DNA from: Porphyra umbilicalis
Taxonomy: Eukaryota > Rhodophyta > Bangiophyceae > Bangiales > Bangiaceae
Assembly: GCA_002049455.2 (NCBI GenBank)
Contig: KV918873.1
Location: 62,001-126,000, forward strand
Direction of reading: 5' to 3'
Length of the DNA stretch: 64,000 nucleotides
Below the pieces are notes generated by a model. It was not told the origin of the DNA. It saw only the letters and a list, made by a program, of their open reading frames with translations, and did no database searches. Within the stretch, counting starts at the first letter, position 1. Every line of letters starts with the position of its first letter. Both the position numbers and the translations under genes were made by a program. Below are positions 3,656-35,290 of the stretch, piece after piece.

Positions 3656-3716
3656 TACACAAAAAGTGAAATCAATGCTAGGGTAGCGCGGGCTCCACTG
3701 GCCTCTCACCCAGAGG

Positions 3717-4644
3717 TGTGATTATAATCATTCCTGGGCTCGGTTAAAATGATTATAATCAACCTTTTGATTTTAAATCGTATGGGGCGATTTTTATTGA
3801 TTATAATCATTGTCCATGATTGTAATCATTGGGCGCCTTTACGACAGAGCAGAATTACGTATATGTATAATAAAAGTCCAATCAAATCTACATTAGACGC
3901 CAGAAGCCAACTTACGAAGCATCCCTTGTAAAGCTACGTGTGTGACTTCGGCAGGGTTGCAGGCGGTGTTCCTACCAAAGAAAGACAGTGCCGACACCGC
4001 CGCCGCTGAGCAGCAACTGATGGTGAGAAATAATCGTGGAGCTGAAGCGACATGTTATTCTGGATAGTGAGACTCGGGTCTGGCCTGACCGGTTGCTCGT
4101 GATGACGCCGCGGCTTTGGCCAAGCGTCTTCCTGCGCTCCAGTCGCTTCACGGGCCACGAAAAACACATGGGAGGCCAACGTGAATCGACCACACCTGAT
4201 AACCTCGCTCAGATGTACTATGTACGATTCTATGTGGCATTTGTGTACTGTTGCCATTGTAACCTTGGCTTGTTTTGCAGATGCCTGTCTTCATATGCAT
4301 GTGGTGCTCTTCGACGCTCTGTCGCTTGGCTCAGACTCTTTCTTCACTCTTCCCTGCGCGCAGATGCATCAGACTGCCATGCTCGTTGCCAGTTCTTCCA
4401 TCTGTGGAAGCGTACCGTGTGAGTGCAGCAGGGCATGTCCTTAGCAATGTTGACACTAACGACAGACGTGGACCTGCCAAACAGCCAGAGGCACGCTTGA
4501 ATCTGTCAGTTGGCAGGCCAACCAGCTGTCTCCATCTCCCAGTAGCCCCCCTCATGTAAGCCCAACTGTAGGTCCCCCTGCATGGCCATGTGATTTTAAT
4601 CATCAGCCCCGTGATGTAAAATGATTATAATCATTATAATCATC
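3717..4644 (-). mobile_element. 928-bp non-autonomous element, intact copy
   Basis: This copy begins with TGTGATTATAATCATTCC and ends in GATTATAATC-rich sequence. Its reverse complement matches 6747-7192 joined to 23506-23987, and both versions are exactly 928 bp long with only scattered differences. It contains AT-rich GATTATAATC motifs in both subterminal regions. There is no convincing protein. It carries the uninterrupted site (ATAAC at 4199-4203) where the other copy is split by the chromovirus. Superfamily is unknown because no clear target duplication was found. Confidence 0.85.
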
Positions 4645-6746: not shown

Positions 6747-7192
6747 GATGATTAAAATGATTATAATCGTTTTACATCACGGGGCTGATGATTAAAATCA
6801 CATGGCCATGCAGGGGGACCTACAGTTGGGCTTACATGAGGGGGGCTACTGGGAGATGGAGACAGCTGGTTGGCCTGCCAACTGACAGATTCAAGCGTGC
6901 CTCTGGCTGTTTGGCAGGTCCACGTCTGTCGTTAGTGTCAACATTGCTAAGGACATGCCCTGCTGCACTCACACGGTACGCTTCCACAGATGGAAGAACT
7001 GGCAACGAGCATGGCAGTCTGATGCATCTGCGCGCAGGGAAGAGTGAAGAAAGAGTCTGAGCCAAGCGACAGAGCGTCGAAGAGCACCACATGCATATGA
7101 AGACAGGCATCTGCAAAACAAGCCAAGGTTACAATGGCAACAATACACAATTGCCACATAAAATCGTACATAGTACAGCTGAGCGAGGTTAT
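6747..7192 (+). mobile_element. 928-bp element, second copy, left half (interrupted)
   Basis: 446 bp matching the reverse complement of 4199-4644 in the intact copy. It stops exactly at the 5-bp duplication GTTAT (7188-7192) next to the chromovirus 5' LTR. The rest of the element resumes at 23506 beyond the 3' LTR. Confidence 0.95.
7188..7192. repeat. Target site duplication, left (GTTAT)
   Basis: GTTAT precedes the LTR start TGTAGCAT. The same five bases follow the 3' LTR at 23501-23505, and occur once in the uninterrupted copy (as ATAAC, 4199-4203). Confidence 0.97.
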
Positions 7193-7585
7193 TGTAGCAT
7201 ATCTCTGCTCCCAATTGGCAATTGGCCACGAGAAGCCACCTTGCCTGGCCGAATCCACGGATTTGTGTGACTCGGCTTGTGGCACGCCCTTTGGGGGGTT
7301 ACCTCCGCATTGTTTATTTTTTATTGCTTGTTTGCTTGCCTGTCTTATCTGTCTGCCAGCACTTATTACGATCGCTTGATCGGATGGTCGATCGACCAGT
7401 GCCGTTGTTTGTATTAAACCACCGTGGGTCCGGGGTCGCCGTCGTGAGCACCACCCGGCTCCCCATCGGATGCCCTTCAACAAAAGATCTTCTTCCTCGC
7501 CGCGACGGCGATAGAACTCGCATTATTGCTTGGCTACGGTCGGTCTCAGTACACTGGTAATTGAACTAACGTTATTAATACCACA
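7193..7585 (+). repeat. 5' LTR of chromovirus A
   Basis: 393 bp beginning TGTAGCATATC and ending AATACCACA. It aligns without gaps to 23108-23500, with differences for example at LTR position 3 (T/A) and near the end (ACACTGG/AGACTGG). It contains a TTTATTTTTTATTG stretch and a TTAAACC segment that could hold promoter signals, but no promoter is proven. Confidence 0.97.
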
Positions 7586-7590
7586 TTCGG

Positions 7591-7608
7591 TGGAGCAGCA
7601 GGGGATAC
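7591..7608 (+). other. Putative primer binding site of chromovirus A
   Basis: TGGAGCAGCAGGGGAT starts five bases after the LTR. TGG is the expected complement of a tRNA CCA end, and the rest would pair with an acceptor/T-arm ending CCCCTGCTGCTCCA. The tRNA identity was not determined. Confidence 0.6.
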
Positions 7609-7815
7609 CCTCGCCTTCATCGTGCCTCGCGGCACGGTGTCCCCGAGAACTTTCTCGCTGCCTCGTGGCATTGTGACGGTGTCGATACGGTCGCTTGGCG
7701 CGCGGGGCGTAAGCCATCGACTTGTGGGCGTGGTGCCGGGGGCATCACGGTTGAGATCTCCGACGTTGGCGCGCAGGGCGTAAGCCAAGTCGGAACACTT
7801 TGTTCAGGTCCCAGT

Positions 7816-9462
7816 ATGTCTACTGGTGGTACCGGCGGCACTCGGCGAGCCAGAGACGGCAAGTTGCCATCTGGCTACCGGCCGCCGGGCGGGGGACAAG
7901 GCACTCCTGCCGCCTCCGACGCCCCAACGGACGGTGCTCCAACTCCTCCCATCCCTGCGGATCAAGCCGCCTCTGGGCAGATTCAGGTGGTGGAGAGCCT
8001 GAAGGCGGCCGTTGTAGCACTTCAGCGACGCCTAACGGCCCAAGAACAGACTAACGAGTCTCTGGCGCGAGCCAATGACAAGTTGGTCGACCACGTCGAG
8101 GCCCTGCGCAAGGTCCACTCCCATGAGGAGGAACGCCGTGTGGCTAAGTCTCGCCGCCAGTCGGGCGACAAAACCAAGGACGTCAAGAAGACGAGCAAGG
8201 TGATTAAGGACAAGTCCGTCCGCAGGGACGCTCCGGCTAACGCCGCACTTTCCTCATCTTCCAACGATTCCGCTTCTGGGCTAAGCCCGACGTCGTCAGA
8301 CGACGACAACCCCAACGCGACGGACACGTCCTCTTCGGACGATGGCCACGGGCCCCCAGGCCCGCCGTCGCCCCCAAGTGGGTCCTCGCCGAGCGACAGC
8401 TCGAGCGAGTCGGACGCGGCCGCGCGCAAGCGCCCCGCGACCCCCACCAAACGGAAGGAGCGACTTGAAAAAGCCGATAGGATCAAGGTAATCCGCCCGG
8501 CTAATAGCCGCTTCAAGACACTCCTGGACTACAGGACGTACTTCCTGATCCGCCGTCAACTGACGTATACGCCTAAAGAGGAACAGCGGTCGCACCGTCT
8601 CAACAAACGTTTGGACGGAGCGTTCCATGGGCAACAGCCATTCACGGGAGCCCTGCCCTTGGGAATCTTCACGTTCTTGACAACCTTCCACCGCGCGTGC
8701 GACACGGCTGGGCTGACGCACGGTCAAGCCCTTCCGCTTATGGTCTTGCGATTATCCGGCAACGCCAAGATGGCCTTCTCCGGCGCGCTTAACAGCACGC
8801 TCGGACGTAAGCGTTTCGCCATCCGTACATACGGAGATGCCGTCAACTGGCTTCTTTCGAAGTATGCGACACACGCAACTATGGCTCACGCCTATCAAGA
8901 CATCATTACGATGAAGCAACAAGACAACGAGGCGCCCACGGCCTTTGGTCATCGCGTGGAAACGCAATGCGACCTCCTGAACGGTTTATTCGACATCCAA
9001 GACGTTAAGGACGTCTTCATCACTGGTCTTTCGGACCTTGTGCAAGCGCACGTCCGGGTACTGAACGACCAGTTCCCCGACAGAACCCTGTCCGAGACGT
9101 TCGCCACCGCCCAGATGTATTGGGACGGTACGAACAAGTTGCGTTTGCAACTCACGATGACCCGCCCAACGGCGATTAAAGTCGCTTACGCGACACAAGA
9201 CCAGCGGACGACGACGGAACGACCGTTCACACCGGCTCGCACCCCGCCGCCCCCTCCGGCCGCCGTCCCTCAAGCCAATCGGGCTGACATCTGTTACAAC
9301 TGTAACAATCCGGGGCACTTCGCCGCACAGTGTGCCGAGCCTTATCGCCCTCGCGAGCGTCGGCAACCGCCTATCGGCGTTCATGCCCTTGCCGACGGTA
9401 ACGTCGAAGAAGACGAGGTCGAGCATCCGGCCGACGCCGTGGACGACTCGAGAAACGTCTAG
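7816..9462 (+). CDS. gag: Gag polyprotein of chromovirus A
   Basis: 548 codons, intact. Residues ~57-100 form a probable coiled coil. Residues ~125-215 are a Ser/Asp/Pro-rich linker. Residues ~230-440 have the shape of a retrotransposon Gag core (helical, with a YRTYF start and repeated LR/FHRA segments). A CCHC zinc knuckle, CYNCNNPGHFAAQC, lies at residues 493-506. The ATG at 7816 follows the PBS by about 210 bases. The product would assemble the particle and bind element RNA. It ends with TAG at 9460-9462; Pol is in the -1 frame immediately after. It is the only sense ORF of this element without a lesion. Confidence 0.93.
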   Translation: MSTGGTGGTRRARDGKLPSGYRPPGGGQGTPAASDAPTDGAPTPPIPADQAASGQIQVVESLKAAVVALQRRLTAQEQTNESLARANDKLVDHVEALRKVHSHEEERRVAKSRRQSGDKTKDVKKTSKVIKDKSVRRDAPANAALSSSSNDSASGLSPTSSDDDNPNATDTSSSDDGHGPPGPPSPPSGSSPSDSSSESDAAARKRPATPTKRKERLEKADRIKVIRPANSRFKTLLDYRTYFLIRRQLTYTPKEEQRSHRLNKRLDGAFHGQQPFTGALPLGIFTFLTTFHRACDTAGLTHGQALPLMVLRLSGNAKMAFSGALNSTLGRKRFAIRTYGDAVNWLLSKYATHATMAHAYQDIITMKQQDNEAPTAFGHRVETQCDLLNGLFDIQDVKDVFITGLSDLVQAHVRVLNDQFPDRTLSETFATAQMYWDGTNKLRLQLTMTRPTAIKVAYATQDQRTTTERPFTPARTPPPPPAAVPQANRADICYNCNNPGHFAAQCAEPYRPRERRQPPIGVHALADGNVEEDEVEHPADAVDDSRNV

Positions 9463-10923
9463 GCCGGGTGCCCGACTTGGGGTTGCCCGGCGGAACGCGA
9501 CAGCGTACGGTGACAAGACTCTTACGTCGTGCCCTTCGGCACTATGAGATCGCAGCCACGTTAGGCCCATGCCTGCGCGTAATGCGAAGTTGCCGCCCTG
9601 TCTTAGACACGGGCGCCGGGGTGAACATAGTGCGAACTAGTGTTCTCCCTTCGAACTGGATGGCTTGCGCCGAAGAGTTGACCACGCTTCCGCGCATCCG
9701 AGATGCAAACAACAATCGTCTTTTGACGAAGTATGCCATACATCTGTATGTAGACACAGAAGGTGTGCGTCTATTTGACCGCTTCCTGGTTTTCGACAAC
9801 TTGTCAGTCCCGTGCATTCTTGGCACCGAGTTCATTGAACAAAACATCGAGGGCATCTTGCCGCGCTTGCGCAAGATCGTCTGGCAAGAGCACGTGCGCT
9901 GCACGGAAGAACAACCTCGGCCAACGCCGATCTTAGCTTGTATTAACGACAGCGCGTGGGACCGCCACTGGCAAGATAAACCCGCTCGGGTTCGAGCCTG
10001 CAACCAGGTGTGTGTCAACGGACGCAAGGAGGAGTGGATCATGGCCACGTGCGACACCCCTGGTATGGTTACCATCACACCGAACATTCGGTTGTGCCGA
10101 CACAAGTCCATGGCAGTCGCCCGCGGCATCGCCATCGTCAAACCGGACGAGCCATTCCTGGTCAAGTTATGCAACTTCGGCAACGACCAAGTCATTGTTT
10201 GCAAGAACTCAACCTTGGGGTTCGCAGAACCCTACCAAGGGCCGATGCTTTCCGCCGTCTTGGATGACAACACCCCAAAGGGTGGAACCGATAACTCATC
10301 GGACCACGCGAGTCGTGACCCACTCGAGGACCTCGACCTCAGCGAGGCACCCGAGTACCTGCACAAGCAGATTCGTGACATGCTTAAGACGCATTCGTCT
10401 ATGTGGAATGGAACCCTTGGCGTCATCCGTGCTACGGAGCACGCCATCGTCACTCCTCCCGACGTTCTGCCCATACGGGCCCAACCCTGCCGCACCGGGC
10501 CGTTCAAACGACAGATCATCGCTGATCAGATCAACAAGATGTTGAAGCTCAACGTCATTGCCCCTAGCCATAGTGCTTGGGCAAGCCCCGTGGTAATTAA
10601 ACCAAAGAAGAACGGCAAAGCCCGATTCTGTGTCGACTATCGTCGGTTAAACAACATCACCAAGAAGGATGCTTATCCCTTTCCGCGGATGAAGGACTGC
10701 CTCGACTCCTTGGGAGATGCCCAGGTGTTCACGTCTCTCGACTGCACCGCGGGGTACTGGCAAGTACCCTTGCGCAAAGACGACCATGATAAGACGGCGT
10801 TCACGACGCACTGTGGTATATACCACTGGTTATCCATGCCGTTCGGCTTGACAAACGCGCCCGCTACCTTCCAGCGCGCGTTGGATATTTTTATCTCGGG
10901 TTTGAAGTGGCAGATATGCCTTG
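9402..10923 (+). pseudogene. pol: Pol of chromovirus A, part 1 (protease and N-terminal RT)
   Basis: The frame is -1 relative to gag. It is open from 9402 (after TAA at 9399-9401), so a ~60-nt overlap with gag exists; the first start-like codon is GTG at 9468. The protease has the catalytic DTGA (Asp codon 9606-9608) and a later ILGTEF segment. Reverse transcriptase follows with FCVDYRRLN, the first catalytic Asp region (FTSLDCTAGYWQ), and FGLTNAPATFQRA. The reading frame is cut inside a valine codon at 10923 by the nested LTR element, immediately before the YVDD box, which lies at 17001 onwards. One target copy (CCTTG) joins the two halves in frame. Confidence 0.95.
10919..10923. repeat. Target site duplication of nested element, left (CCTTG)
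   Basis: CCTTG precedes the 5' LTR start TGTAGCAC and is repeated at 16994-16998 after the 3' LTR. Removing the element and one copy restores the RT reading frame across the junction. Confidence 0.97.
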
Positions 10924-11525
10924 TGTAGCACCACCTGGTCGGGGGTGGTGCCGGGGCACGGCGCGGGGGGAGCCGGGGTCGGGCGGACACGACCCCCACC
11001 AGCACACGGGCCTGGTGTGCCCTCGGGCCACGGGCATTGCGCCCACACTGGGTGTGGGGCCGTGCGGTGCGTGAAACCCGGCCTGGCGGCGCGCAGCCGC
11101 GGCCAGCGGGCCCGCGCGGGGCGGCGGTTATGTCGGGCGGCGAGCGCTCCCGCGTAGCCACGCCACCGGCCGCCACGTGCCGCCACGTCAGGCAGGGGCG
11201 CCCGGTCCCGATTCCCCCTCGTCTCTACTTACCGCATTGGGGGACTTGTCTTGCATTGTATTTAGTTGTATTGGTTGGTCGGCGGCGCGGGCCAATTCCC
11301 ATTAGGGGAATTGGGCCCACGCAACGGTTTCCGCCCTTTTAGGACGAAGGGCGACGACGGTGGGAGGCACCGTCGTCGCCGGCAAGTAAACCGTGCCTTG
11401 TGTCATCACCTCTGGCGGCCTGACTTCCCGGGTCCGATGGCCCTATAGCAGTGCACGCACGGAGGGGGCACGTGCGGAATGCTTCCCTCCCCCCTATGAC
11501 TTGATCCACATTCTGTTGTGCATCA
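10924..11525 (+). repeat. 5' LTR of element C
   Basis: 602 bp, TGTAGCACCACC…GTGCATCA. It aligns to 16392-16993. The last four bases (ATCA) differ from the 3' copy (TACA), where the ends TGTAGCAC/GTGCTACA form a perfect 8-bp inverted repeat. Confidence 0.96.
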
Positions 11526-11527
11526 TT

Positions 11528-11546
11528 TGGCGCTCCGGGTGAGACC
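11528..11546 (+). other. Putative primer binding site of element C
   Basis: TGGCGCTCCGGGTGAGACC begins two bases after the LTR and has the TGG expected to pair with a tRNA CCA end. It differs from the PBS of chromovirus A, so a different tRNA is likely used. Confidence 0.65.
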
Positions 11547-12420
11547 TGCTTGTGGCCGTAGCTGCTCGCGGGACGAACCGTCCTAGCACTTTGGTTGTGG
11601 TTGTATTGGTGGGGTTGTCTTGGGTGCGATGCCATTTGAGGACATTGTGATCGACCGTGTTCCTGTCGCCGTTTCGGATCACGGCTCTTCCTCAACTTCC
11701 CTGCAGAACGATGACTACGCGTGACTCAAGGCTCGTTTCGGGCAAGGGACAACGCAATGTCGTCGGCAGGAGACGACGAGGCGCCAGCCGGGCGTCTTCG
11801 GGGCCCGGGGTGGGATTGGGGTGGAGCGCTGAGCGGTGGCGGCAGATCGGTGGCCGTGGAGAACGGACCTACGGTCCTTAGACCCCGGCTGCACGCACCC
11901 GTCAGTGACTTGCGTCCCAGCCGCTTCGGAACGAGACGCTCGGGCCGCGGCGCGTCGCACTGGGTGCCAGGGGGCCTATGTTACTTGTAACCCCTGGGCG
12001 GATCGGGCCTCGCAGGTGGTGCGGGATCCACCGGAGAACCTTTTCCAAAGGAGGTTGCGGAAGGGTGCACGGAGCGCAGCGCCCTGGGGCCCGGTAGGGC
12101 AAGCAACATCTTTGTCTTCCGCTGGCGATGTCAGCGACAAGGCCGGTCGCATGCGACAGTCCCAAGGTGTTTACTCAACTACCAAGTTCAAGGTCAGCTA
12201 CGAGGTGCAGCGCACCAAAAGGTCGCATGCCTATGGCCGCGACAAGCAGGGCGGATGCTCGACACGCGTCCGCCAAGAAGGACGAGATAAGACGCGAAGG
12301 CCGATCCGGGCGTGAATTCCGGGTGGATCTCTTAGCGCAGCAACGGCAGCTTGAATTGGAACTGTGGAGGAAGGTGAAGCGCGCCGTGGGCCGCTGCGGC
12401 CGCGGTGTGAACGGCAGTGC

Positions 12421-14010
12421 TGCGATCGAGACGTGGGTGGTCGCCGCCGAGGACGTCTTCCACCGCCTCGGATCGACTCGGCCGTCGTGGTCTCGGCGGT
12501 GATGCTGGTGCTGGCGTACCCCACGCGGGGGACGCTGATTGGTGCTCAGCGCCTCCCCCCGTGGGATGGCGGGACGCCCAGTACTGGCAGCGTCGCTTAT
12601 AGGGCGTGGCCCCGGCGGACGACAAGGTCGGGGCGAGACTGGGTTGCTCGAGAGGTGGGCGGTCGCCGCCGAGGACGTCTTCCTCCGCCTCGGATCGACT
12701 CGGCCGTCGTGTTCACGGCGGCGATGCCGGTGCTGGCGTACCCCACGCGGGGGACGCTGATTGGTGCTCAGCGCCTCCCCCCGTGGGATGGCGGGACGCC
12801 CAGTACTGGCGGCGTCGCGTATGGGGCGTGGCCCCGGCGGACGACAAAGTCGGGGCGAGACGGGGTGGCGACGCCACAACGCCGCATGGGCGCGGTGGAA
12901 CGCGGCCAGCCGCCTCGCCGACGCGTCGTTGTGGACCCCGATGCGGCGATCGAGACGTGGGCGGTCGACGCCGAGGACGTCTTCCCCCGCATCGGATCGA
13001 CTCGGCCGTCGTGGTCACGGCGGCGATGCCGGTGCTGGCGTACCCCACGCGGGGGACGCTGATTGGTGCTCAGCGCCTCCCCCCGTGGGATGGCGGGACG
13101 CCCAGTACTGGAAGCGTCGCTTATGGGGCGTGACCCCGGCGGACGACAAGGTCGGGGCGAGACGGGGTGGCGACGCCACAACGCCGAATGGGCCCGGTGG
13201 AACGTGGCCAGCCGCCTCGCCGACGCGTCGTTGTGGACGCCGATGCGGCGATCGAGACGTGGGCGGTCGCCGCCGAGGACGTCTTCCTCCGCCTCGGATC
13301 GACTCGGCCGTCGTGGTCACGGCGGCGATGCCGGTGCTGGCGTACCCCACGCGGGGGACGCTGATTGGTGCTCAGCGCCTCCCCCCGTGGGATGGCGGGA
13401 CGCCCAGTACTGGCAGCGTCGCGTATGGGGCGTGGCCCCGGCGGACAAGGTCGGGGCGAGACGGGGTGGCGACGCCACACCGCCGCATGGGCGCGGTGGA
13501 ACGCGGCCAGCCACCTCGCCGACGTGTCGTTGTGGACGCCGATGCGGCGTTCGAGACGTGGGCGGTCGCCGCCAAGGACGTCTTCCTCCGCCTCGGAACG
13601 ACTCGGCCGTCGTGGTCTCGGCGGCGATGCCGGTGCTGGCGTACCCCACGCGGGGGACGCTGATTGGTGCTCAGCGCCTCCCCCCGTGGGATGGCGGGAC
13701 GCCCAGTACTGGCAGCGTCGCGTATGGGGCGTGGCCCCGGCGCACGACAAGGTCGGGGCGAGACGGGGTGGCGACGCCACAACGCCCAATGGGCGCGGTG
13801 GAACGCGGTCAGCCGCCTTGCCGACGCGTCGTTGTGGACGCCGATGCGGCGATCGAGACGTGGGCGGTCGACGCCGAGGACGTCTTCCCCTGCCTCGGAT
13901 CGACTCGGCCGTCGTGGTCACGGCGGCGATGCCGGTGCTGGCGTACCCCACGAAGAGGACGCTGATTGGTGCTCAGCCCCTCCCGCAGTGGGGTGACGGG
14001 ACGCCAAGCA
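12421..14010. repeat. Tandem array, ~302-bp units
   Basis: About five units, the first partial (~222 bp). Recurrent landmarks are GCGATCGAGACGTGGG (12946, 13248, 13849; variants at 12420 and 13550) and CCCACGCGGGGGACGCTGAT. Spacing is 302, 302 and 299 bp. Units are very similar to each other, suggesting recent expansion or homogenisation. Confidence 0.92.
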
Positions 14011-14049
14011 CTGGCAGCGTCGCGCCGGGGGTAGGTTCTCGGCCGCCGC

Positions 14050-14835
14050 CGGTTGGCCGCAGCGGCCGAGGCCAATGGGGTGGCGGCCACGCACAGGGCG
14101 GTACCCCTGGCGACGCGCCAGCGTGCGAAGAGGGTGGCACGCCAGTGGAGCGGCGCCCTGGTCGCCGGCGGACGGCGCGGTGGGCGACGCGCCGGTGGGG
14201 CGGTGCCCCTGGCGACGCGCCGGCGAGTGAAGGAGGGCGGCATGCCCGTGGGGCGGCACCCTGGTCGCCGGCGGTCGGCGCGGCGGGCGACCCGCCGGTG
14301 GGGCGGTGCCCCTGGCGACGCGCCGGCGAGTGAAGGAGGGCTTCACGCCAGTGGGGCGGCGCCCTGATCGCCGGCGGTCAGCGCGGTGGGCGACGCGCCG
14401 GTCGGGCGGTGCCCCTGGCGACGCGGCGGCCGGTGAAGGGAGGCGGCATGCGAGTGAAGCGGCGCCCTCATCGCCGGCGGGCAATGCGGTGGGCGAAGCG
14501 CCGGTGGGAAGTGCCCCTGGCGACACGCCGGCGAGCGAATGGGGGCAGCACGCCGATCGGGCGGCGCCCTAGTCGCCGCTGGTCGGCGCGCTGGGCGACA
14601 CGCCGGTGGGGCAGCGCCCTCGGCGACGCGTCGCCGCGCAAAAGAGGCGGTACGCCGCTGAGGCGGCGCCCTTGGCGACGCCTCGGCACGCGCAAGGTAC
14701 GATACGCCAGTGGGTCGGCACTCTTGCCGCCGGCGTTTGGCCTGGTGGGCGATGCGCCAGTTGGGTCGCGCCCCTGGCGTCGCGCTGGCGCGCGCAAAGG
14801 CCAGCACGCTGGTGGGGCGGTGCCCTTGTGACCGC
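14050..14835. repeat. Tandem array, ~103-bp units
   Basis: About seven degenerate units marked by CCCCTGGCGACGCGCCGGCG-type cores spaced 100-105 bp apart (about 14100, 14203, 14303, 14407, 14511, 14614). Confidence 0.88.
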
Positions 14836-14837
14836 TG

Positions 14838-16210
14838 GCGCTGGCGTGGTCGCGCCGCGATGCCGCGTCGCGTTGCACACCGAACCACGAGGGGGCCAAT
14901 CGCTGGCTGTCTTGCCGGTGGCACGGACGCGCGGCGTCTTCGTCGGCCGCGGTGGCCGGGGGCAGGCGGCGTTCTCTGCCCCCGCCGGCGGGCTTCCCGC
15001 GGTCGGTTTCGCGCCCCCCGGGTATGGGCGGGTTCCCCGCGGGACGCGCTTCCTCCCTGTCGTAGGGGGAAGTTGGGGGCCACACTGCCCGTGGCGGTGG
15101 GGCGCCTCGCCCGCCGGCGCTGGTGTGGTGGCGCCGCGATTCCGGGCGGCGTTGCACGCCGGATCACGGGGGGGCCAATCGCTGGCCGTCTTGCCGGTGG
15201 CACGGACGCGCGGCGTCTTCGTCGGCCGCGGTGGCCGGGGGCAGGCGGCGTTCTCTGCCTCCGCCGGTGGTCTTCCCGCGGTCGGTTTCGCGCCCCCGGG
15301 GTATGGGCGGGTTCCCCGCGGGACGCGCTTCCTTCCTGTCGTAGGGGGAAGTTGGGGGCCACACTGCCCGTGGCGGTGGGGCGCCTCGCCTGCCGGCGCT
15401 GGTGTGGTCGCGCCGCGATTCCGGGCGGCGTTGCACGCCGGGTCACGGGGGGGCCAATCGCTGGCCGTCTTGCCGGTGGCACGGACGCGCGGCGTCTTCG
15501 CCGGCCGCGGTGGCCTGGGGCGTGCGGCGTTCTATGCCCCCGCCGGCGGGCTTCCCGCTGTCGGTTTGGCGCCCCCGGGGTATGGGCGGGTTCCCCGCGG
15601 GACGCGCTTTCTTTCTGTCGTAGGGGAACGTTGGGGGCCACACTGCGCGTGGCGGTGGGGCGCCTCGCCCGCCGACGCTGGTGTGGTCGTGCCGCGATTC
15701 CGGGCGGCGTTGGACGCCGGATCACAAGGGGGCCAATCGCTGGCCGTCTTGCCGGTGGCACGGACGCGCGGCGTCTTCGTCGGCCGCGGTGGCCGGGGGC
15801 AGGCGGCGTTCTCTGCCCCCGCCGGTGGGCTTCCCGCGGTCGGTTTCGCGCCCCCGGGGTATGGGCGGGTTCCCCGCGGGACGCGCTTCCTTCCTGTCGT
15901 AGGGGGAAGTTGGGGGCCACACTGCCCGTGGCGGTGGGGCGCCTCGCCTGCCGGCGCTGGTGTGGTCGCGCCGCGATTCCGGGCGGCGTTGCACGCCGGA
16001 TCACGGGGGGGCCAATCGCTGGCCGTCTTGCCGGTGGCACGGACGCGCGGCGTCTTCGCCGGCCGCGGTGGCCTGGGGCGTGCGGCGTTCTATGCCCCCG
16101 CCGGCGGGCTTCCTGCGGTCGGTTTCGCGCCCCCCGGGTATGGGCGGGTTCCCCGCGGGACGCGCTTCCTCCCTGTCGTAGGGGGAAGTTGGTCTCCGCA
16201 CCGCCCATGG
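14838..16210. repeat. Tandem array, 279-bp units
   Basis: Five units starting with GCTGGTGTGGTCGCGCCGCG near 14840, 15119, 15398, 15677 and 15956, exactly 279 bp apart (93 codons). This keeps several frames open through the array on both strands. Confidence 0.95.
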
Positions 16211-16378
16211 CAGTGAGGCGGCGTGCTCGTCGGGTTCGTGACGATGCGAGCCGCCGCAAGCCGGGTCCGTCGCGGACACCGCCGGCATTGCGGTACCGCT
16301 GGTGCCCCTTGGCGTCAGTGAGGCTTTCCCTTGTTACCTTGATGGTCGCATCATCGGCCGCCGCGGACGGCAGCTGCT

Positions 16379-16391
16379 GGGAAGAGGGTGA
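16379..16391 (+). other. Polypurine tract of element C
   Basis: GGGAAGAGGGTGA lies directly before the 3' LTR start, as expected for the plus-strand primer site. Confidence 0.8.
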
Positions 16392-16993
16392 TGTAGCACC
16401 ACCAGGTCGGGGGTGGTGCCGGGTCACGGCGCGGGGGGAGCCGGAGTCGGGCGGACACGACCCCCACCGGCATACGGGCCTGGTGTGCCCTCGGGCCACG
16501 GGCATTGCGCCCACACTGGGTGTGGGGCCGTGCGGTGCGTGCAACCCGGCCTGGCGGCGCGCAGCCGCGGCCGGCAGGCCCGCGCGGGGCGGCGGTTATG
16601 TCGGGCGGCGAGCGCTCCCGCGTAGCCACGCCACCGGCCGCCACGTGCCGCCACGTCAGGCAGGGGCGCCCGGTCCCGATTCCCCTTCGTCTCTACTTAC
16701 CGCATTGGGGGACTTGTCTTGCATTGTATTTAGTTGTATTTGTTGGTCGGCGGCGCGGGCCAATTCCCATTAGGGGAATTGGGCCCACGCAACGGTTTCC
16801 GCCCTTTTAGGACGAAGGGCGACGACGGTGGGAGGCACCGTCGTCGCCGGCAAGTAAACCGTGCCTTGTGTCATCACCTCTGGCGGCCTGACTTCCCGGG
16901 TCCGATGGCCCTATAGCAGTGCACGCACGGAGGGGGCACGTGCGGAATGCTTCCCTCCCCCCTATGACTTGATCCACATTCTGTTGTGCTACA
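16392..16993 (+). repeat. 3' LTR of element C
   Basis: 602 bp, TGTAGCACCACC…GTGCTACA, the partner of 10924-11525. It is followed by the second CCTTG duplication. Confidence 0.96.
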
Positions 16994-19431
16994 CCTTGTC
17001 TACGTAGACGATGTCATCATCTTCTCCGCAAACGCGGAACAACACGGCAAAGACGTTGACACGGTTCTTCACCGTCTTCGCGAAGCCGGGGTCACCCTCA
17101 ACTTGGAAAAATTGCACGTGGTTGTCCGACGAGGTCGAGTACCTAGGACACATTGTCCGCCCCGGGCAACTGCACGTGCACAACAAGAACGTGGATGCTC
17201 TGAAGCATGCCAAGTTCTCAACCACAAAGACCCAGCTGAAAAGCATCTTGGGCATGTGCAACGTCTATCGACGGTTTGTCAAAGACTTTGCCAAACGAGC
17301 AAAGCCCCTGAACGCCCTGACTAGGGCCGAGATCCCACCGGATTTACCACCACCGACGGACGAGGCTATCACCGCCTTCGAGGACCTTCGCAACGCACTG
17401 TTGTGCCCACCGGTACTTGCCTTGCCGAAGGCCAATCGGAAGCTCGCCGTTGACGTGGACGCATGCGCCGACCAAGTTGGTTGTACCCTCCTCCAAGAGG
17501 AGCCGGGCGAACTGCTTCACCCTGTCGGATATTGGAGCCGAGGACTCACTGCTGCAGAGCAAAACTACTCCACCACGGAGCGAGAATGCCTCGGCGTCGT
17601 GTGGGCTGTCCTCAAGTTGAGGCACTTCCTCGACGGGCAACGGTTCCTCATCTGAACGGATCACTAAGCACTTAGCTGGATCTACAGCACGACCGACTCA
17701 AGCGGACGCTTGATGCGATGGCGACTTCGCCTCTCCGAATACACATTCGATATGGTTTACAAACCAGGTGCATCTCACCACTTGCCCGACTTCCTGTCGC
17801 GCGCCTCTACGGTGGCGCCGCCAGAAGATATCCATGATGATATACCTTGTCTGGCATTGGCCGAGACGGCCAACGGCTTAAGAACGGGGAGGTACACGGG
17901 TACCGACACACCGGAACCGGTGGCGTTCGACGATGTTGTCGAAGCACAACAAACAGACGACTTTTGCGTCGAGATGTCCACTCGCGTGGAGCGCGGAACG
18001 GCCAAGGCCTTCTTCCGCGATGAGCATCACGCTCTGTACCGCCGTGCGCCTTACGGCAATCAACTGGTTATTCCAAAGTCTCTACGCGAACGCGTGTTGA
18101 CCCTAGAGCACCACGCAACCGTGGCTGCCCATCCTGGGATGAACCGGATGTATTACACAATGCGTAAGGCATACTACTGGCCTTCAATGGTGACGGATAT
18201 TCATTCGACCATCACCAAATGCACAACGTGTGCGCAAAATCGCCTCGCCTTGCGGCGACACACCACGCCCTTGACCCTGCTACAGGCTACCGAGCCTCTC
18301 ACGGAGCTGTCCGTTGACATCTTTGGGCCCATCCCGGCCTTCAAGAAGGGCAACCGCTTCAGCTTGGTTATCACCGACCGCTTCGCCAAGCTCACCAAGT
18401 GCGTCGCCTTGCGGCGAATCACGGCCATGTCCGTGGCGTCAGCCATCATCAACGCGTGGGTGTCAGCCTACGGGCCACCGGACCGGATCCTATCGGACCA
18501 AGGGCCCCAGTTCATGTCGAACTTCTTCATCGGTGTGATGAAAATGCTTGGCATTGAAACGGTTCGCACCACGGCGTATCATCCCCAAACCAATGGGCAA
18601 GTCGAACGGTACAACCGTACCATGGCTACTCAGCTGCGACACTACGTCGGCGACGACCCATCACGATGGGATGAGCTACTCCCGGTAATCACCATGGCGT
18701 ATAATAGCCAACCACATCGGTCGACGGGCATCGCCCCATTTGAGCTCGTTATCCCAAGGCGGATCCCCAACCTCACGGTTCGCAACTTGCCCCCGGGCAC
18801 TCCGCTTACCAATAAGGGAACACTCAATGATGGGTCACCCCTAGCTCGCAAACGCGAGTTCATTGCCCGCCTGCGCAAGCTGATCCCCATCGTGGTCGAG
18901 GCCTTGCGTAAGACGCAACAACGTTACAAACGTAACTTCGACCATCGGGTCGCAACCCGCAATGCGGACGTCAAGATCGGCGACTACGTATATACGACCA
19001 ACCACGACCGGCAAAACAAGCTGCAAAGCAAAGCCATCGGACCCTTCGTGGTCATTGACGCAGACGCGGACGCCTCCACGTTTGTCATTGACATTGACGG
19101 CGAGGAGAAACGCGTCAGCAGTGACCATGTCACCCCAGCTCCTCGTCCAACGACGACGGACACTGTTCCACACCCCCTGCTAGATGGTCTAGACCAACAC
19201 AAGTCACCCCCGGCAATTGCCGATGAGTATGTGATTGACGAACTCCTAGGCTTACGCCTGACGGGTGACAGCTATAGCGCTAAGGTGCGCTGGTTCGACT
19301 ACGGATCGAAGGAAGACACCTGGGAACCCCTGGAGAACCTCCCTCGCAACCTGGTGGTGCGTTTCCTTCGACAGAAGAAGAAGCATGTACCGGGGTACGA
19401 GTGGCAAACGCCAACGCGACAAAGTCGCTGA
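16994..19431 (+). pseudogene. pol: Pol of chromovirus A, part 2 (RT, RNase H, integrase, chromodomain)
   Basis: It resumes with VYVDD (catalytic RT Asp pair) at ~16998. One extra base in GGAAAAATTG (17105-17114) shifts the frame; after it the text continues as DEVEYLGHIV. RNase H follows, then two in-frame stops, TGA 17653-17655 and TAA 17665-17667, each one transition from CGA or CAA. The frame is then open to 19431. Integrase has the HHCC zinc region (~18108-18240), catalytic Asp 18316-18318, Asp 18496-18498 and Glu 18604-18606. A C-terminal chromodomain (YVIDELLG…VRWFDYGSKEDTWEP) at ~19225-19350 marks the chromovirus lineage and would guide integration to particular chromatin. Not translatable as one protein in this copy. 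Confidence 0.96.
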
Positions 19432-19449
19432 CAGGCCGGGCTCACAACC

Positions 19450-20007
19450 GTGGCCAAGGTCGTCATGGACTCCACGTGGATACCCACTATCCAACATGTC
19501 CATGTTACCGGTGACGGAGTTATCCATGCCAACGTCTCGTGGACGGTGTCAAGTACAGCCGTCGCAATGAAGGAAGTAATTCCTGTCGCGTGGCCCAAGT
19601 CCACTCTGCCGTCCATGACGCGCAACTTTGCGTATGATCCCCAACTTGCCTTGCGGCATTTCTCTCGGCTGAACCGTGTTTACGGCCCGTACACATATGT
19701 GTGGCCGAAATCCGCACAAGCGACTGTGATCGGGAGCGATCCCCCTGTACCAGGGCTCCCCAACGGGTTTCTGGCACCTCCCGTGCAACACTTGGACTCA
19801 GTCCTTCGACGCTTGGTAACAACCGCAGAGGAAGCAACCGTGGTAATACCACAATGGACCAACACCAGTTGGTACGCTACTGCCATACGTGCATGTTTCG
19901 AGTACGAAGTGCTTTTATCAGCAGACTCAAGGGATACAAATCCCACAACATGGGCCATGATGGCCTGCCACTTCCTTCATCGCTATGACGATGAACAGAA
20001 AAACTGA
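19450..20007 (+). CDS. Small ORF after pol of chromovirus A, unknown
   Basis: 185 codons from a GTG (ATG at 19465) to a TGA, starting 18 bases after pol ends and in the same orientation. The sequence is non-repetitive with ordinary amino-acid composition. The second half contains VVIPQWTNTSWYATAI, a P-x-W…W pattern, followed by a hydrophobic segment. No domain is recognised. Its place after integrase and before the opposite-strand ORF is where some retroelements carry accessory genes. It could be a lineage-specific ORF or a degenerate remnant of a larger one. Confidence 0.5.
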   Translation: MAKVVMDSTWIPTIQHVHVTGDGVIHANVSWTVSSTAVAMKEVIPVAWPKSTLPSMTRNFAYDPQLALRHFSRLNRVYGPYTYVWPKSAQATVIGSDPPVPGLPNGFLAPPVQHLDSVLRRLVTTAEEATVVIPQWTNTSWYATAIRACFEYEVLLSADSRDTNPTTWAMMACHFLHRYDDEQKN

Positions 20008-20151
20008 GAAGTGGATACCAACATGTCGAACGACAAGCAACAACAAGACGAAGAAACATCAACGCCCTAAAAAGGCGTAAGACCCCGTCATTGTCAACCC
20101 CACCCCCCCTCACCGGGGTCAACCGAGCAAGTCACTGAACAGTGAACCTCG

Positions 20152-22110
20152 CTACTCCTCGTCGTCACGACGACGCGAGTCCCGGCGGGAATCGCGGCTC
20201 GCGCCAACACTGGCCGCCGACTCCTGAGAGACACTACGCGCACGCGTGCTGCGCGCCGAGTGCGGAGCCCCCGTCGACGGGCCTCCGCCCTCGTGGGTCC
20301 GACGACCAAGGATGCTCTGCGCGTTGAAGCGCGCCGGCGTGGCCTCCTCCTCTGGCTGAATAGCCTCGAGGTGCTGGGCGAAGCGCCCGTAGTTGGCCTC
20401 GCCGTCAACGGCGCGAGCCACGGCCTGTCCAATAATGGACAAAGCCGACTCGACACCCCGTCCGTCCGCGCGCTCAACATCGTTACGCAAGCCCGCGATC
20501 TGCTCAACCCAGGCGCTAGCCACCGCCGACAAGGCTGCCCCGCGGGGCGCGCGAGCGCGTACATCGCGCGCGCGCGCCGACCTAAACAAGGCAACCGCCG
20601 CGGTGGAAGACGCGCGGGTCGGCCAAGTGGCATCCACCGCCCGGGGCGGAGATGGCGAGCGATCGCGCCGCGGCGAACGCGGGCGGTAGCGGCCCTCTCG
20701 GGCGTCGCCAACGGCGTGAGCGCAGGTCCGACGACCACGACGCCACACCCCGGGATGGTTCGAAGTGATTTGAGCCATCGGGAGTGGCGCGTTCGGGTCC
20801 AACGCCCAGTTGAAATCGACACGAGGGTGGCGAAGGCAAAAGCCGTACTCCTTGGTCGGGTCGACCGTGACCCGCACCTGACGAGCTTCCCCAGAGTCTC
20901 GGTCGCGCCAGACGACATCCTGAAGGACCTCCCGCCAGGGAAACGCCGTCACGGCTTGACGCATCTTTCCGTACAAGACGGACTTGGCTTCGCCGTCGGA
21001 CGCGTCCTTCAACTTGCACGTATCCAACGCGTCGAAATGACGAAGCGTCTTCGCGTCCAAGTGGACGAAGAGCTTGTCCTCCTGCAGGGTGTGAACCCAC
21101 GCAGCAACTAATTTGCAGTAGTACTCGGAGTACACCTCCTGCCAGACGGAGCTGTAGGCGTTGCGCAACGCATCCGCCAGGTACGACACCACTACGGGGG
21201 TCGCCACCCACAACCCCGTGTGGGGCTCCCACGCCGGGATAGGCGGAAGCCAACGGGACAAGTCGAACTCCCGTGGCGCACGGAGAAATCCAGCCGCCCA
21301 CGCGGTGGGCATCAACTCGCGACCGCGAAAGAAGCGCGTGTCGGCGGCCCGACGGTGATCGAATGGGAACATCGGCAGCCGAAAAGGGTTCGGCAACCCG
21401 GTGACCCGCGGACTGCGGTCATCCTCGACGTGGTCGTTCTCCTCGTGCTTCACCAGCGCGAGCTGCTCGAGGTACGGTTCCAGACCGGAGTCGTGCCCGA
21501 ACGGGACCGAAAGGTCCTCGGCAAGAGCCCGCTTGAGGAAGACGGCCTTCGGCCAGTTGCGCAGCAAGCGGCAAAACGAGTTGGCCGCCGCCTCGATCGT
21601 CTCTGTACCCTTCACAGGGAACAGAAGCGCATTGGCGTACACCAAGCGGTGAAACGGGCGCAAGGGCAATTGGTAACGCACGACCTCGTTGCAAAACGAC
21701 ATCACCTCGTACACACGACGCTGAGGACCCTGGTTCCCAAAGTACGGGCCCACATGGACCTCGGCCACGCGGTCGCCCGCGTGGTCCGGCAACCCGGCTT
21801 GCGCCATCACGTCGATGAAGTCGGGCAACGCCTCGTAATGCGCGTAGACACGGCGCGTGTGGGCACGAGCGCGGTTGCGTACGCACATCTCGTACAGACG
21901 GTTGTCGGTGACTCGCGGGACCCCATCAACCACCTCCACAGGGTTCGCGTGTACGTAGTACGAGCCTCGAGGCCGAAACTGGCGCAAGACCTCCGGGTCC
22001 GCGGAGCAATCCTCTTCCGGATGGCCCCCCGCAGCGGCATGTGCCCCGTCGATGGCCTCACCGCCATCGGCAACGCCGACGTCCACCGCCATCGCGGCCG
22101 AGTCCGCCAT
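20152..22110 (-). CDS. Opposite-strand ORF of chromovirus A, 652 aa, unknown
   Basis: An uninterrupted 652-codon frame on the strand opposite to gag-pol, between pol and the 3' LTR. Residues ~25-430 have mixed, globular-looking composition rich in aromatic residues (for example LPPIPAWEP near residue 290 and YSSVWQEVYSEYYC near 325). Residues ~450-510 are Arg/Ser/Pro-rich, a helical segment follows, and the last ~60 residues are an Arg/Ser/Asp tail. It is not a simple shadow: pol is not on the other strand here, and the sense frames are repetitive Ala/Arg/Leu text. The second chromovirus has an equivalent ORF at 55709-57370. Antisense ORFs in this position are known from some plant Tat/Retand-type elements, but no family membership is claimed. 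A start at 22110 (ATG) is assumed. Confidence 0.7.
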   Translation of the reverse strand: MADSAAMAVDVGVADGGEAIDGAHAAAGGHPEEDCSADPEVLRQFRPRGSYYVHANPVEVVDGVPRVTDNRLYEMCVRNRARAHTRRVYAHYEALPDFIDVMAQAGLPDHAGDRVAEVHVGPYFGNQGPQRRVYEVMSFCNEVVRYQLPLRPFHRLVYANALLFPVKGTETIEAAANSFCRLLRNWPKAVFLKRALAEDLSVPFGHDSGLEPYLEQLALVKHEENDHVEDDRSPRVTGLPNPFRLPMFPFDHRRAADTRFFRGRELMPTAWAAGFLRAPREFDLSRWLPPIPAWEPHTGLWVATPVVVSYLADALRNAYSSVWQEVYSEYYCKLVAAWVHTLQEDKLFVHLDAKTLRHFDALDTCKLKDASDGEAKSVLYGKMRQAVTAFPWREVLQDVVWRDRDSGEARQVRVTVDPTKEYGFCLRHPRVDFNWALDPNAPLPMAQITSNHPGVWRRGRRTCAHAVGDAREGRYRPRSPRRDRSPSPPRAVDATWPTRASSTAAVALFRSARARDVRARAPRGAALSAVASAWVEQIAGLRNDVERADGRGVESALSIIGQAVARAVDGEANYGRFAQHLEAIQPEEEATPARFNAQSILGRRTHEGGGPSTGAPHSARSTRARSVSQESAASVGASRDSRRDSRRRDDEE

Positions 22111-22139
22111 CGCGTTGGCCGTTCGGGGATGTTTACCAT

Positions 22140-22330
22140 GGCTGTCGCCGCCGGGCTTGCCGCGGTTGTCGTCGCCGCAGCGCTTGCCGTTCTTGACGCC
22201 GTCGCCTTCGGGCTTGCCGCCCTTGCCGCCGTCGCCGCCGGGCTAGCCGCGCTTGCCGCCCTTGCCGCAGCGCTTGCCGCCCTTGCCGCCGACGCCGCCG
22301 GGCTTGCCGCCCTTGCCGCCGTGCGCGCCG
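22140..22330. repeat. Short tandem repeat in chromovirus A
   Basis: 15-18-bp units of GCTTGCCGCCCTTGCCGCC type. They are open on the plus strand as an Ala/Leu run and on the minus strand as Gly/Lys, so not counted as coding. Confidence 0.85.
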
Positions 22331-22484
22331 CCCCCCCCACCCCGCACAAACCCACACTCACCGGGCCCACCACCTCGCGGTGTGCCACCTTGCGGCGGCG
22401 CACCCCTACTCAACCCTGCCGTTAGGCAGCGACCTGTGCGTGAGCACGAAGACACGGGATGGCCCCGTGCCGACACAACGCGGA

Positions 22485-22785
22485 CCCGCACCCCGGCTTC
22501 CGCCCCGTCGCCAAGGGAGTCAACACCCCGACGAGGGCGGCGCCTGCTAACACGACGACGATCACCCAGCCGGTGCTGCCCCGCGCGCACGCCTCGGTGC
22601 TAACCCGCCTTAAGGTGTGAACCCCACCCCCACGCTCGGTACCACGGACCCGCGTCCCGGCTTTCACCGTGTCGTCGGGGTAGTCAAACCCCCGACGAAG
22701 GAGGCGCCACTCGGCGCCGACGACGGTTGCCCCAACACGTGATGCACGACGCACCCGCGCACCAACGGGTCTTAACCCCGACGTT
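22485..22785. repeat. Diverged ~160-bp tandem duplication upstream of the opposite-strand ORF
   Basis: Two units begin CGGACCCGCACCCCGGCTT (22485) and CGGACCCGCGTCCCGGCTT (~22648). Both continue through GTCAACACCCCGACGA- and GTCAAACCCCCGACGA-like cores. They lie upstream (on the minus strand) of the 652-codon ORF, where its promoter would be, but no promoter element is identified. Confidence 0.6.
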
Positions 22786-23107
22786 CGTCGCCGATTAACC
22801 GGCCGCCTGGCCCCCGCGCCGACGCCGACGCCGACTCGCCTGCGCGGGCGCGCGTACGCGCATGCGCCGGTCGGATCCGCAGCGTCAGCTGCCCGCCACC
22901 CACGCCCACGCGTGTGTGGCGGGACGGTCGCGACCGACGACGGCGAACCGCCACCTCCCCGTAACCGGGACTGGGCGGCGCGCCCCCCACGGCTCCCGCC
23001 GCCTGGGCGGTTGCGCCCGCAAGGTCCCGTAAGAGGCCGCGATCGCCCAATCGGGTTTCACCATCCTCGGATCTCACCGGGACGGTTCGAATCTCGTGTT
23101 TGAGGTA

Positions 23108-23500
23108 TGAAGCATATCTCTGCTCCCAATTGGCAGTTGGCCACGAGTAGCCCCCTTGACTGGCCGAATCCACGGATTTGTGTGACTCGGCTTGTGGCAC
23201 GCCCTTTGGGGGGTTACTTCCGCATTGTTTATTTTTTATTGCTTGTTTGCTTGCCTGTCTTATCTGTCTGCTGGCACTCATTACGATCGCTTGATCGGAT
23301 GGTCGATCGACCAGTGCCGTTGTTTGTATTAAACCACCGTGGGTCCGGGGTCGCCGTCGTGGGCACCACCCGGCTCCCCATCGGATGCCCTTCAACAAAA
23401 GATCTTCTTCCTCGCCGCGACGGCGATAGAACTCGCTTTATTGCTTGGCTACGGTCGGTCTCAGTAGACTGGTAATTGAACTAACGTTATTAATACCACA
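23108..23500 (+). repeat. 3' LTR of chromovirus A
   Basis: 393 bp, TGAAGCATATC…AATACCACA, the partner of 7193-7585. The preceding sequence (GTTTGAGGTA) is only weakly purine-rich, so the polypurine tract is not obvious. Confidence 0.97.
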
Positions 23501-23505
23501 GTTAT
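23501..23505. repeat. Target site duplication, right (GTTAT)
   Basis: Second copy of the five bases at 7188-7192. Confidence 0.97.
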
Positions 23506-23987
23506 CAGGTGTGGTCGATTCACGTTGGCCTCCCATGTCTTTTTCGTGGCCCGTGAAGCGACTGGAGCGCAGGAAGACGCTTGGCCAAAGCCGCGGCGTC
23601 ATCACGAGCAACCGGTCAGGCCAGACCCGAGTCTCACTATCCAGAATAACATGTCGCTTCAGCTCCACGATTATTTCTCACCATCAGTTGCTGCTCAGCG
23701 GCGGCGGTGTCGGCACTGTCTTTCTTTGGTAGGAACACCGCCTGCAACCCTGCCGAAGTCACACACGTAGCTTTACAAGGGATGCTTAGTAAGTTGGCTT
23801 CTGGCGTCTAATGTAGATTTGATTGGACTTTTATTATACTTATACGTAATTCTGCTCTGTCGTAAAGGCGCCCAATGATTACAATCATGGACAATGATTA
23901 TAATCAATAAAAATCGCCCCATACGATTTAAAATCAAAAGGTTGATTATAATCATTTTAACCGAGCCCAGGAATGATTATAATCACA
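23506..23987 (+). mobile_element. 928-bp element, second copy, right half
   Basis: 482 bp matching the reverse complement of 3717-4198. Together with 6747-7192 it totals 928 bp, the length of the intact copy. Confidence 0.95.
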
Positions 23988-23994
23988 TCTCTGC

Positions 23995-34039: not shown

Positions 34040-35290
34040 CTACTCCTCGTTGCCCGGTTCTTGGCGCTGCCCTTGGAGATCAGCAACAGCTTGTCGCACC
34101 TCTGCAGCCGCGTCGATGCGCCGTTGGGCCAAAACATCGCTCCGCGTGCACTCAATAGCCATGTTGTGCAAAATGGCCACCGCCTTTCCGGTGTTGATCA
34201 TCCGCAATACCGTCGTGAAGCGTGCTGGTCGAAGAATGATGTTGAAGCGCGACGGCATGACGGCGTACAATCGTTCAGCGTCTTTCCGGACAGCTTGCTG
34301 CAGCCGGTTGTACACGCGCCGCTTGGGGGTTACCGGGTTGGGGTGGGTCATTGCAAACAAAGCATACCGGGGATATACTTGGTCGGCCGTGTAATACAGC
34401 AAGCGACGGGTACGGCCGTTCAGTGTATAGTGGATGTTCCTCGGCGGCCACACACCCGCGTTCGCGTCAAGCATCAGGGGTGAACACGCCAGCACATTCA
34501 TGTCATTGTAGCTCCCAGGAGCCCCAATAAAAAAGTGCCAGATGTACGTGTCCTCATCGCAGATGCTCTCAAAGACCACGGAGCGCTTACCCTTGCGGTC
34601 ATGGTACTGGCCGGCCAGAGCCTTGGGACACTTGAGCCACTGCCAGTGCGTGCAGTCAATAGAACTGATACAGCCCGGCATACCACGGGCCGCGTTGCGG
34701 GTGAGGATGTGCTTGAGTTCGTCTTCGGTCGGGCGGCGCAGGTACGTCGCCTCTCACTTGTCGACGATGAGGTTGGTGAGGCGCCGGGTTGCCTCCGGGA
34801 TGGCAGACGGCGACAGGCGGGAGTACTCGTCGGGACGGTCGTACGGCTCCCCGTAGCCCAACACCCGCAACGCCGCCAGCAGCTTCTGGATGGGGTACGA
34901 CTGCAGCCGCCCAGTCGCGTTAATCGAGCGTCGCCACCACGGCTCATTGCGCACGGCCGTGTGGAGCCGCTTGAAAACTGCTCGCGGCATGCGATTGCGC
35001 TTCTCAAGAGCTCGCTCGCTGTAGACGGGCGGCTCCCCGCCGACCCCAAAGTAGTCACGCATGATAGAGTGCGCGCCCAGGTCAAAGTTGCGGTCCCGGT
35101 TCGGCCGTTGGCCCGGGCGAGAATCACCAAACAAGAGCTTCTCCACCCGCCCGCGCACGGTCAGCAGCGCGCTCCGGATGCGCAGGCCAGCCCGATACCC
35201 AAGCACCACGGCCACGTCCAAACCGTCGTAAAATGAGCCCTCGGAAGCCGCCACAGCATCCATGGGGAGCGGGCCCGGTATGGGCCACAA
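34040..35290 (-). pseudogene. PIF/Harbinger-type transposase (plant-transposon-protein family), one premature stop
   Basis: A single frame of ~416 codons on the minus strand, broken only by TGA at 34754-34756 (one transition from CGA). The N-terminal half carries a helix-turn-helix-like region. The C-terminal half is the DDE nuclease: SSIDCTHWQW (first Asp), GAPGSYNDMNVL (second Asp), then the family signature YTADQVYPRYALF and RKDAERLYAVMPSRF (Glu), ending with a KAVAILHNMAIE helix. The layout fits Plant_tran/DDE_Tnp_4 proteins that cut and paste PIF elements. The start ATG may be 35290 or the later one at 35263. Element ends were not found. The DDE residues are intact, so only the stop blocks the product. 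Confidence 0.9.

Follow-up and report, generated by a model that had tools for sequence, protein, structure and literature searches.

A probable antisense accessory gene under purifying selection between pol and the 3′ LTR of a chromovirus in the red alga Porphyra umbilicalis

Antisense open reading frames (ORFs) between pol and the 3′ long terminal repeat (LTR) of retrotransposons have been catalogued for years without a function being assigned to them. The closest described examples belong to the Retand/Tat elements (Retand, gene23 of Grande, RIRE2), and many of them carry the TRP28 domain (PF04195) according to the sections of a review that deal with them (PMC7264820). The same sections, citing Gomez-Orte 2013, describe the Grande antisense protein as nuclear and as having its own promoter, and a regulatory role has been proposed by the authors for the Grande and Retand antisense proteins (PMC7264820; PMC11963269). 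The extra ORFs of plant chromoviruses were placed on the 5′ side in a 2024 paper, as far as its relevant parts go (PMC11728184). Here we describe an antisense ORF, referred to as aORF, from a window of 64 kb on one contig (KV918873.1) of the 83.8-Mb, 665-contig genome assembly of Porphyra umbilicalis, where it lies between pol and the 3′ LTR of a chromodomain-bearing element and is antisense to pol. In keeping with a red-algal host, contig C665 of the assembly gave eight near-complete phycobiliprotein matches; one of them, phycoerythrin beta, matches chains of R- and B-phycoerythrin in the PDB, where the top-scoring chain bears the label 'Bacterial fluorescent protein beta'.

The element spans 7193-23500 and is bounded by 393-bp LTRs which are 96.9% identical, have TG...CA termini and are flanked on both sides by GTTAT. 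A Pfam search of its open pieces returned a zinc-knuckle gag, protease, reverse transcriptase (RT), RNase H, an H2C2/rve integrase and, at the C-terminal side of the integrase, the chromodomain PF00385 (27.9 bits, cut-off 25.1); the matches to Retrotrans_gag (16.6 bits, cut-off 24.1) and RVP (19 bits, cut-off 20.7) were both below cut-off. Gag, protease, RT, RNase H and integrase follow one another as in Ty3 between the LTRs, and the element is flanked by a short target duplication. Because of these matches and the chromodomain, we assign the element by its domain content to the chromoviruses (Ty3/gypsy elements with a chromodomain). The initial annotation had reported an intact 652-codon opposite-strand ORF at this position in a chromovirus, and the frame, the LTRs and the domains all bear this out.

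A whole-protein search of the P. umbilicalis genome gave 68 scored matches (475 candidates), 46 of which, the window copy included, have no in-frame stop. From the 67 whole-length matches other than the window copy, the 40 with the highest scores were taken and combined with it into a comparison set of 41 frames of 1959 bases each; 31 of these are intact from ATG to stop, and 40 are gap-free against the window copy. The genome was also searched with a 112-amino acid (aa) stretch of the aORF and with a 110-aa stretch of a second subfamily, for which the best 150 of 261 and the best 150 of 208 candidates were scored. One conserved aORF motif, searched for as a degenerate pattern of 23 bases, occurred 143 times in the genome, against 0 for the reversed control. 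In the flanks of the 40 other copies, all picked because they contain the ORF, the pol tail was present in 40 and the 3′ LTR in 39. Similarity stops at 23500-23506 in 38 of the 40; of the remaining two, L039 reaches its contig end, and L024, which has an extra insertion, was covered and compared short of the LTR.

The evidence for a gene lies in the codon-level pattern of variants among these copies. Variants common to at least 3 of the 41 copies comprised 18 nonsynonymous (N) and 58 synonymous (S) changes, against a neutral expectation of 72% nonsynonymous (p 3.2e-18) obtained by random, spectrum-matched placement of the same changes; without the window copy the count was 16:53. Variants found in two copies stood at 15N:31S. 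Singletons, at 242N:129S including 8 stops, were near but not quite neutral (p 0.01), as in dead copies, and choosing copies by protein score may also have lowered the number of nonsynonymous singletons. For comparison between regions, copies covering at least half of a stretch were kept (37 of 41 for the integrase, 40 of 41 for the LTR). Shared variants were 5N:26S in the integrase and chromodomain (18001-19428, 37 copies) and 3N:14S in the pol tail (41 copies), and by these counts selection on the aORF is of the same order as that on the integrase. Since codon-level selection is seen across the copies, the aORF is almost certainly a real gene of the element that encodes a protein and has been preserved by purifying selection as the family expanded.

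Four of the other five frames over the aORF had a ratio of nonsynonymous to synonymous polymorphism (pN/pS) among shared variants of 1.7-4.2. The fifth, on the plus strand, had a shared pN/pS of 0.25; we rejected it as a frame selected in its own right and took the value to be a shadow of the aORF, because its third codon positions coincide with those of the aORF and stops are involved in 7 of its 76 shared variants. Two long plus-strand frames that overlap the aORF (20146-21108 and 21112-22422) gave 1.74. Judged by these ratios, no other frame over the aORF shows selection of its own. In the stretch 22340-23107 the shared pN/pS was 0.65-1.02 in all six frames. Gap patterns showed a similar boundary: 0 of 40 copies deviated from the commonest pattern in any of the eighteen 100-base bins covering 20232-22031, whereas 14 to 37 of 40 deviated in the six bins of 22032-22631, a contrast that is partly built in since the copies were picked by full-length match.

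The window copy taken alone says less. Its private changes were 26N:27S in the aORF (expected 36.8:14.5), 14:10 in the integrase (expected 16.3:6.8) and 11:4 in the pol tail (expected 10.8:3.8), and given these changes the probability of finding no stop in its aORF is 0.165. The idea that the intact window frame by itself shows function was therefore dropped. It is true, as the initial annotation had pointed out, that the frame is open over about 2 kb while pol is broken, but this is weak evidence. Length alone is weak evidence too, because in 100 simulated 64-kb sequences of the same composition the longest open frame had a median of 448 and a maximum of 743 codons; the aORF measures 696 codons from stop to stop.

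Selection was also seen over a greater evolutionary distance. Matches 71-78% identical over the 112-aa stretch led to four copies of the second subfamily (L049-L052), which are about 70% identical overall. The aORF is open throughout in L049-L051; in L052 it is interrupted by an early stop, and the match extends to aa 586. A further copy, L053, is an intermediate relative (87%). The ratio of nonsynonymous to synonymous divergence (dN/dS) between the window family and L049-L051 was 0.21-0.22 at a dS of 0.83-0.92, while it was 0.19 for the window copy and L012, 0.27 for L053 and L012, and 0.32 for L053 and the window copy. The least changed stretches in a sliding-window comparison fell at about columns 301-360 and 481-600. 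The suggestion of a new accessory protein is thus supported by both the shared variants and the divergence between subfamilies; absence of conservation in other copies, or a dN/dS near 1, had been named beforehand as outcomes that would speak against it, and the opposite was found.

For analysis of the protein, the window sequence was aligned with the other intact copies (alignment A1; 29 of 30, after removal of one duplicate protein), and a second alignment of 12 members (A2) was made of the window protein, 7 copies from A1, L049-L051 and L053, with L052 excluded for its stop. The boundaries of the parts listed in Table 1 are our own and were drawn from conservation and composition. The R/S/P linker (aa 451-495) has a net charge of +8, and PRRD occurs in it in 12 of 12 aligned members, the longer PRRDRS being broken by an insertion in L050. 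A hydropathy scan of the aORF protein found no membrane-spanning stretch (highest 19-residue mean 1.08), and the protein seems to be soluble.

Profile search of the 12 members against Pfam up to E 10 returned no family, in agreement with the earlier observation that no domain is recognisable. PHROGs gave a single match at E 0.12, which was taken as chance, and among PDB sequences there was no chain related to the aORF protein. Scans of viral (IMG/VR) and prokaryotic (GTDB) contigs, which may not include the P. umbilicalis genome, found no aORF relative; each used two short peptide patterns and speaks only against close relatives. A search of the P. umbilicalis genome for the TRP28 family gave 0 matches, a weak negative since in the control 1 of 14 genomes matched and none above cut-off; PMD (PF10536) gave none either, again a weak negative as its control matched in 0 of 14 genomes. 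Kinship of the aORF with TRP28, if any, would be very distant. Judged by sequence similarity, the protein represents a family not yet present in any of the databases searched (Pfam, PHROGs, PDB, IMG/VR and GTDB contigs).

The genome was also searched with the pol tail (447 candidates; 150 of 151 matches used). The gene was scored as present when an aORF match from the 112- or 110-aa searches, that is, from the best 150 of 261 and of 208 candidates, lay no more than 2.5 kb downstream of the tail on the other strand, which was the case for 98 of the 150 tails. Among tails without an in-frame TGA, 91 of 96 have an aORF match and 5 do not. Tails with the TGA, a set that is a mixture of a subfamily and decayed copies, have a match in 7 of 54 cases, and the other 47 are without a detectable copy, through absence or strong divergence. 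Extending the limit to 4 kb adds one TGA tail, on C52, but the aORF match counted there is part of the copy that follows. Among the five TGA-free tails without a match, the one on C16 has the motif, at the distance expected, and the one on C314 has junction DNA near the contig start. TGA and TGA-free tails perhaps provide a natural comparison with and without the gene, and if the related group truly lacks it, copy number, age, insertion sites and small RNAs can be compared within one 84-Mb genome. A TGA shared throughout one subfamily could mean that pol ends earlier there or that the stop is read through. Several of the tails with a TGA lie next to a frame that is open for as many as 1580 codons.

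As for function, we lean towards a nuclear, nucleic-acid-binding regulator, because of the conserved basic linker, the lack of membrane segments and the precedent of Grande. The aORF would have a promoter of its own, either within the 3′ LTR or in the stretch that separates this LTR from the aORF start, and would be transcribed convergently with pol. Its product would act in the nucleus on nucleic acid and may help the RNA or DNA of the element itself through expression, export, escape from silencing or integration.

Several observations weigh against a conserved gene with such a role. R/S-rich stretches are common in GC-rich genomes and hence are weak evidence for nucleic-acid binding. Single-sequence structure models were poor and gave no fold (mean predicted local distance difference test scores of 32.9 and 48.9); the second model draws helices for aa 490-605, and no claim about the fold rests on either. 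Ranking by protein similarity favours intact, gap-free, protein-conserving copies, although the integrase and pol tail, which were not selected on in the choice of copies, show the same pattern of selection. Within the second subfamily dN/dS was 0.25 and 0.39 (the latter for the L049-L051 pair), higher than between subfamilies. Lastly, a related group seems to be without the gene (47 of 54 TGA tails), which may mean that the gene is dispensable for amplification.

The aORF might have originated as a captured host gene, or as the gene of another transposon that was inserted backwards and then kept; this concerns origin and is compatible with several functions. The TGA tails that seem to lack the gene make a gain within the lineage possible, as they do a loss, but the protein has no Pfam domain of either a transposase or a host gene, and we regard capture as rather doubtful, bearing in mind that a divergent host copy could hide beyond the best 150 of 261 and 150 of 208 candidates. 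An activity outside the nucleus, as an envelope- or movement-like protein, a particle protein or a cytoplasmic silencing suppressor, is unlikely. Env-like ORFs of plants do sit between pol and the 3′ LTR, as the corresponding part of PMC7264820 describes, but they are recognised by sense orientation and a membrane-spanning stretch; the aORF is antisense and without such a stretch, and Pfam, PDB and the lone PHROG match lend this activity no support. It is less probable still that the antisense RNA is the product that matters, forming double-stranded RNA with the genomic RNA of the element in a self-limiting manner, with the protein being secondary. Transcription in the antisense direction would yield RNA that is complementary to the 3′ portion of the genomic RNA, and this role is raised for plants in PMC7264820, which allows that the roles of RNA and protein may coexist, but an RNA-only role leaves the synonymous excess among shared variants unexplained. 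Least credible is the view that no protein is made, the frame being open by chance because the DNA is GC-rich, or merely reflecting selection that acts on the opposite strand: the composition permits frames of this length and two plus-strand frames overlap the aORF, but the 18N:58S count in the aORF frame, the pN/pS of 1.74 in the overlapping frames and the low dN/dS across subfamilies in our view refute it.

The features of the element are collected in Table 1. In the window copy the RT part of pol shifts frame between about 16990 and 17330 (by our reading of the frames) and in-frame stops follow at 17653 and 17665. The initial annotation had noted this frameshift and these two stops correctly; it had missed a nested LTR element of about 6 kb that splits pol, and a third stop at 19429. 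The nested element has LTRs that are 98% alike and tandem arrays with 302-, 103- and 279-base units; no pol was noticed among its long ORFs, and Pfam was not run on it. The third stop is absent from 40 of 40 other copies, and on this ground the 185-codon sense frame at 19450-20007 was rejected as a separate gene and identified as the pol tail. The convergent genes are separated by 144 bases, between the pol end at 20007 and the aORF end at 20152. The tail, about 185 residues past the chromodomain, has no Pfam match above cut-off, is under purifying selection and possibly holds an unrecognised domain. An insertion of about 790 bases lies in the pol tail in L009 (655-1444) and L010 (4770-5561), with flanks that overlap by 18 bases (window 19432-19449).

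The element was inserted into the second copy of a resident repeat. An uninterrupted copy lies at 3711-4644 (minus strand), and the split copy is left as 6747-7192 and 23501-23993, so that the locus offers a ready empty site; the two repeat matches flanking the element overlap by exactly 5 bases, the length of the duplication. Elsewhere in the window there is a second gypsy-type pol at 57826-62030 (minus strand; protease, RT, RNase H and integrase), with no chromodomain match in its open pieces. A DDE transposase (Plant_tran, E 1.1e-52), presumably Harbinger-like, is encoded at 34043-34753 (minus strand), and about 540 bases at 54117-54659 match their own reverse complement at 74%. Rfam gave no match on the window.

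Table 1. Features of the chromovirus and of the aORF protein (window coordinates unless given as aa)
Feature	Position	Strand	Remarks
5′ LTR	7193..7585	+	TG...CA; GTTAT target duplication 7188-7192
gag open frame with zinc knuckle (stop to stop)	7579..9459	+	Pfam
pol, first open piece: protease and RT start	9402..10925	+	Pfam
Nested LTR element inside RT gene	10924..16993	+	~600-bp LTRs; CCTTG 10919-10923 and 16994-16998
pol, second open piece: RNase H	17011..17652	+	Pfam
pol, third open piece: integrase and chromodomain	17710..19428	+	Pfam
pol C-terminal tail beyond chromodomain	19450..20007	+	severed from pol in the window copy alone
Antisense accessory ORF (aORF), 652 aa	20152..22110	-	ATG to stop
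aORF, more variable part	aa 1-90		
aORF, main conserved part	aa 91-450		
aORF, R/S/P-rich basic linker	aa 451-495		
aORF, conserved part, perhaps helical	aa 496-600		
aORF, R/S-rich tail	aa 601-652		
GC-rich short tandem repeats directly upstream of aORF start	22144..22333	.	gap patterns differ among copies
Noncoding stretch, repeats to 3′ LTR	22340..23107	.	candidate antisense promoter site (inferred)
3′ LTR	23108..23500	+	GTTAT 23501-23505

A search of the open-licence literature, judged by titles and abstract openings, found no antisense ORF in a red-algal chromovirus. As far as this literature goes, what is new here is the occurrence of an antisense accessory gene in a chromovirus and in a red alga, the lack of known relatives of its protein and the measurement of selection on it. 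Selection of integrase order has now been shown for one of the catalogued antisense ORFs, outside the printed plant and fungal cases found.

With coding selection found on it, the aORF can provisionally be placed in a class of antisense accessory genes defined by likeness of working (aORF-3R). Retand is a non-chromovirus lineage which, in the relevant part of PMC7264820, occurs only in flowering plants, whereas the present element has a chromodomain and resides in a red alga; many Retand/Tat antisense ORFs carry TRP28, while the aORF has no PF04195 match, and for the aORF family codon-level selection has been measured here. The aORF is therefore best read as analogous to the Grande/Retand antisense ORFs and not as a member of them. 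The antisense gene brtn of Boty/BcGypsy1 from Botrytis cinerea is likewise an extra antisense gene in an LTR element outside plants, in a fungal host, and is likened to the aORF by its description in parts of PMC7264820 and PMC8365987, not by sequence. Tekay chromoviruses of sunflower and grasses also have an extra conserved ORF, predicted to be nuclear, but in the account available from PMC11728184 it lies on the 5′ side, encodes about 400 aa that are mostly predicted to be disordered, and is not a 3′ antisense gene. HBZ of human T-cell leukaemia virus type 1 and other retroviral antisense proteins are encoded antisense to gag-pol, HBZ being described as a nuclear regulator in the pertinent part of PMC11963269; this is a likeness in working only. 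Taken together, we tentatively propose, while holding it to be somewhat less than an even chance, that Ty3 elements have repeatedly evolved antisense accessory genes at the site between pol and the 3′ LTR, and that the aORF would be a true regulatory gene of the red-algal chromovirus, from a new protein family and independent of plant Tat and fungal Boty. If so, the presence of near relatives with and without the gene in one genome would allow a direct comparison of how the gene affects spread and silencing.
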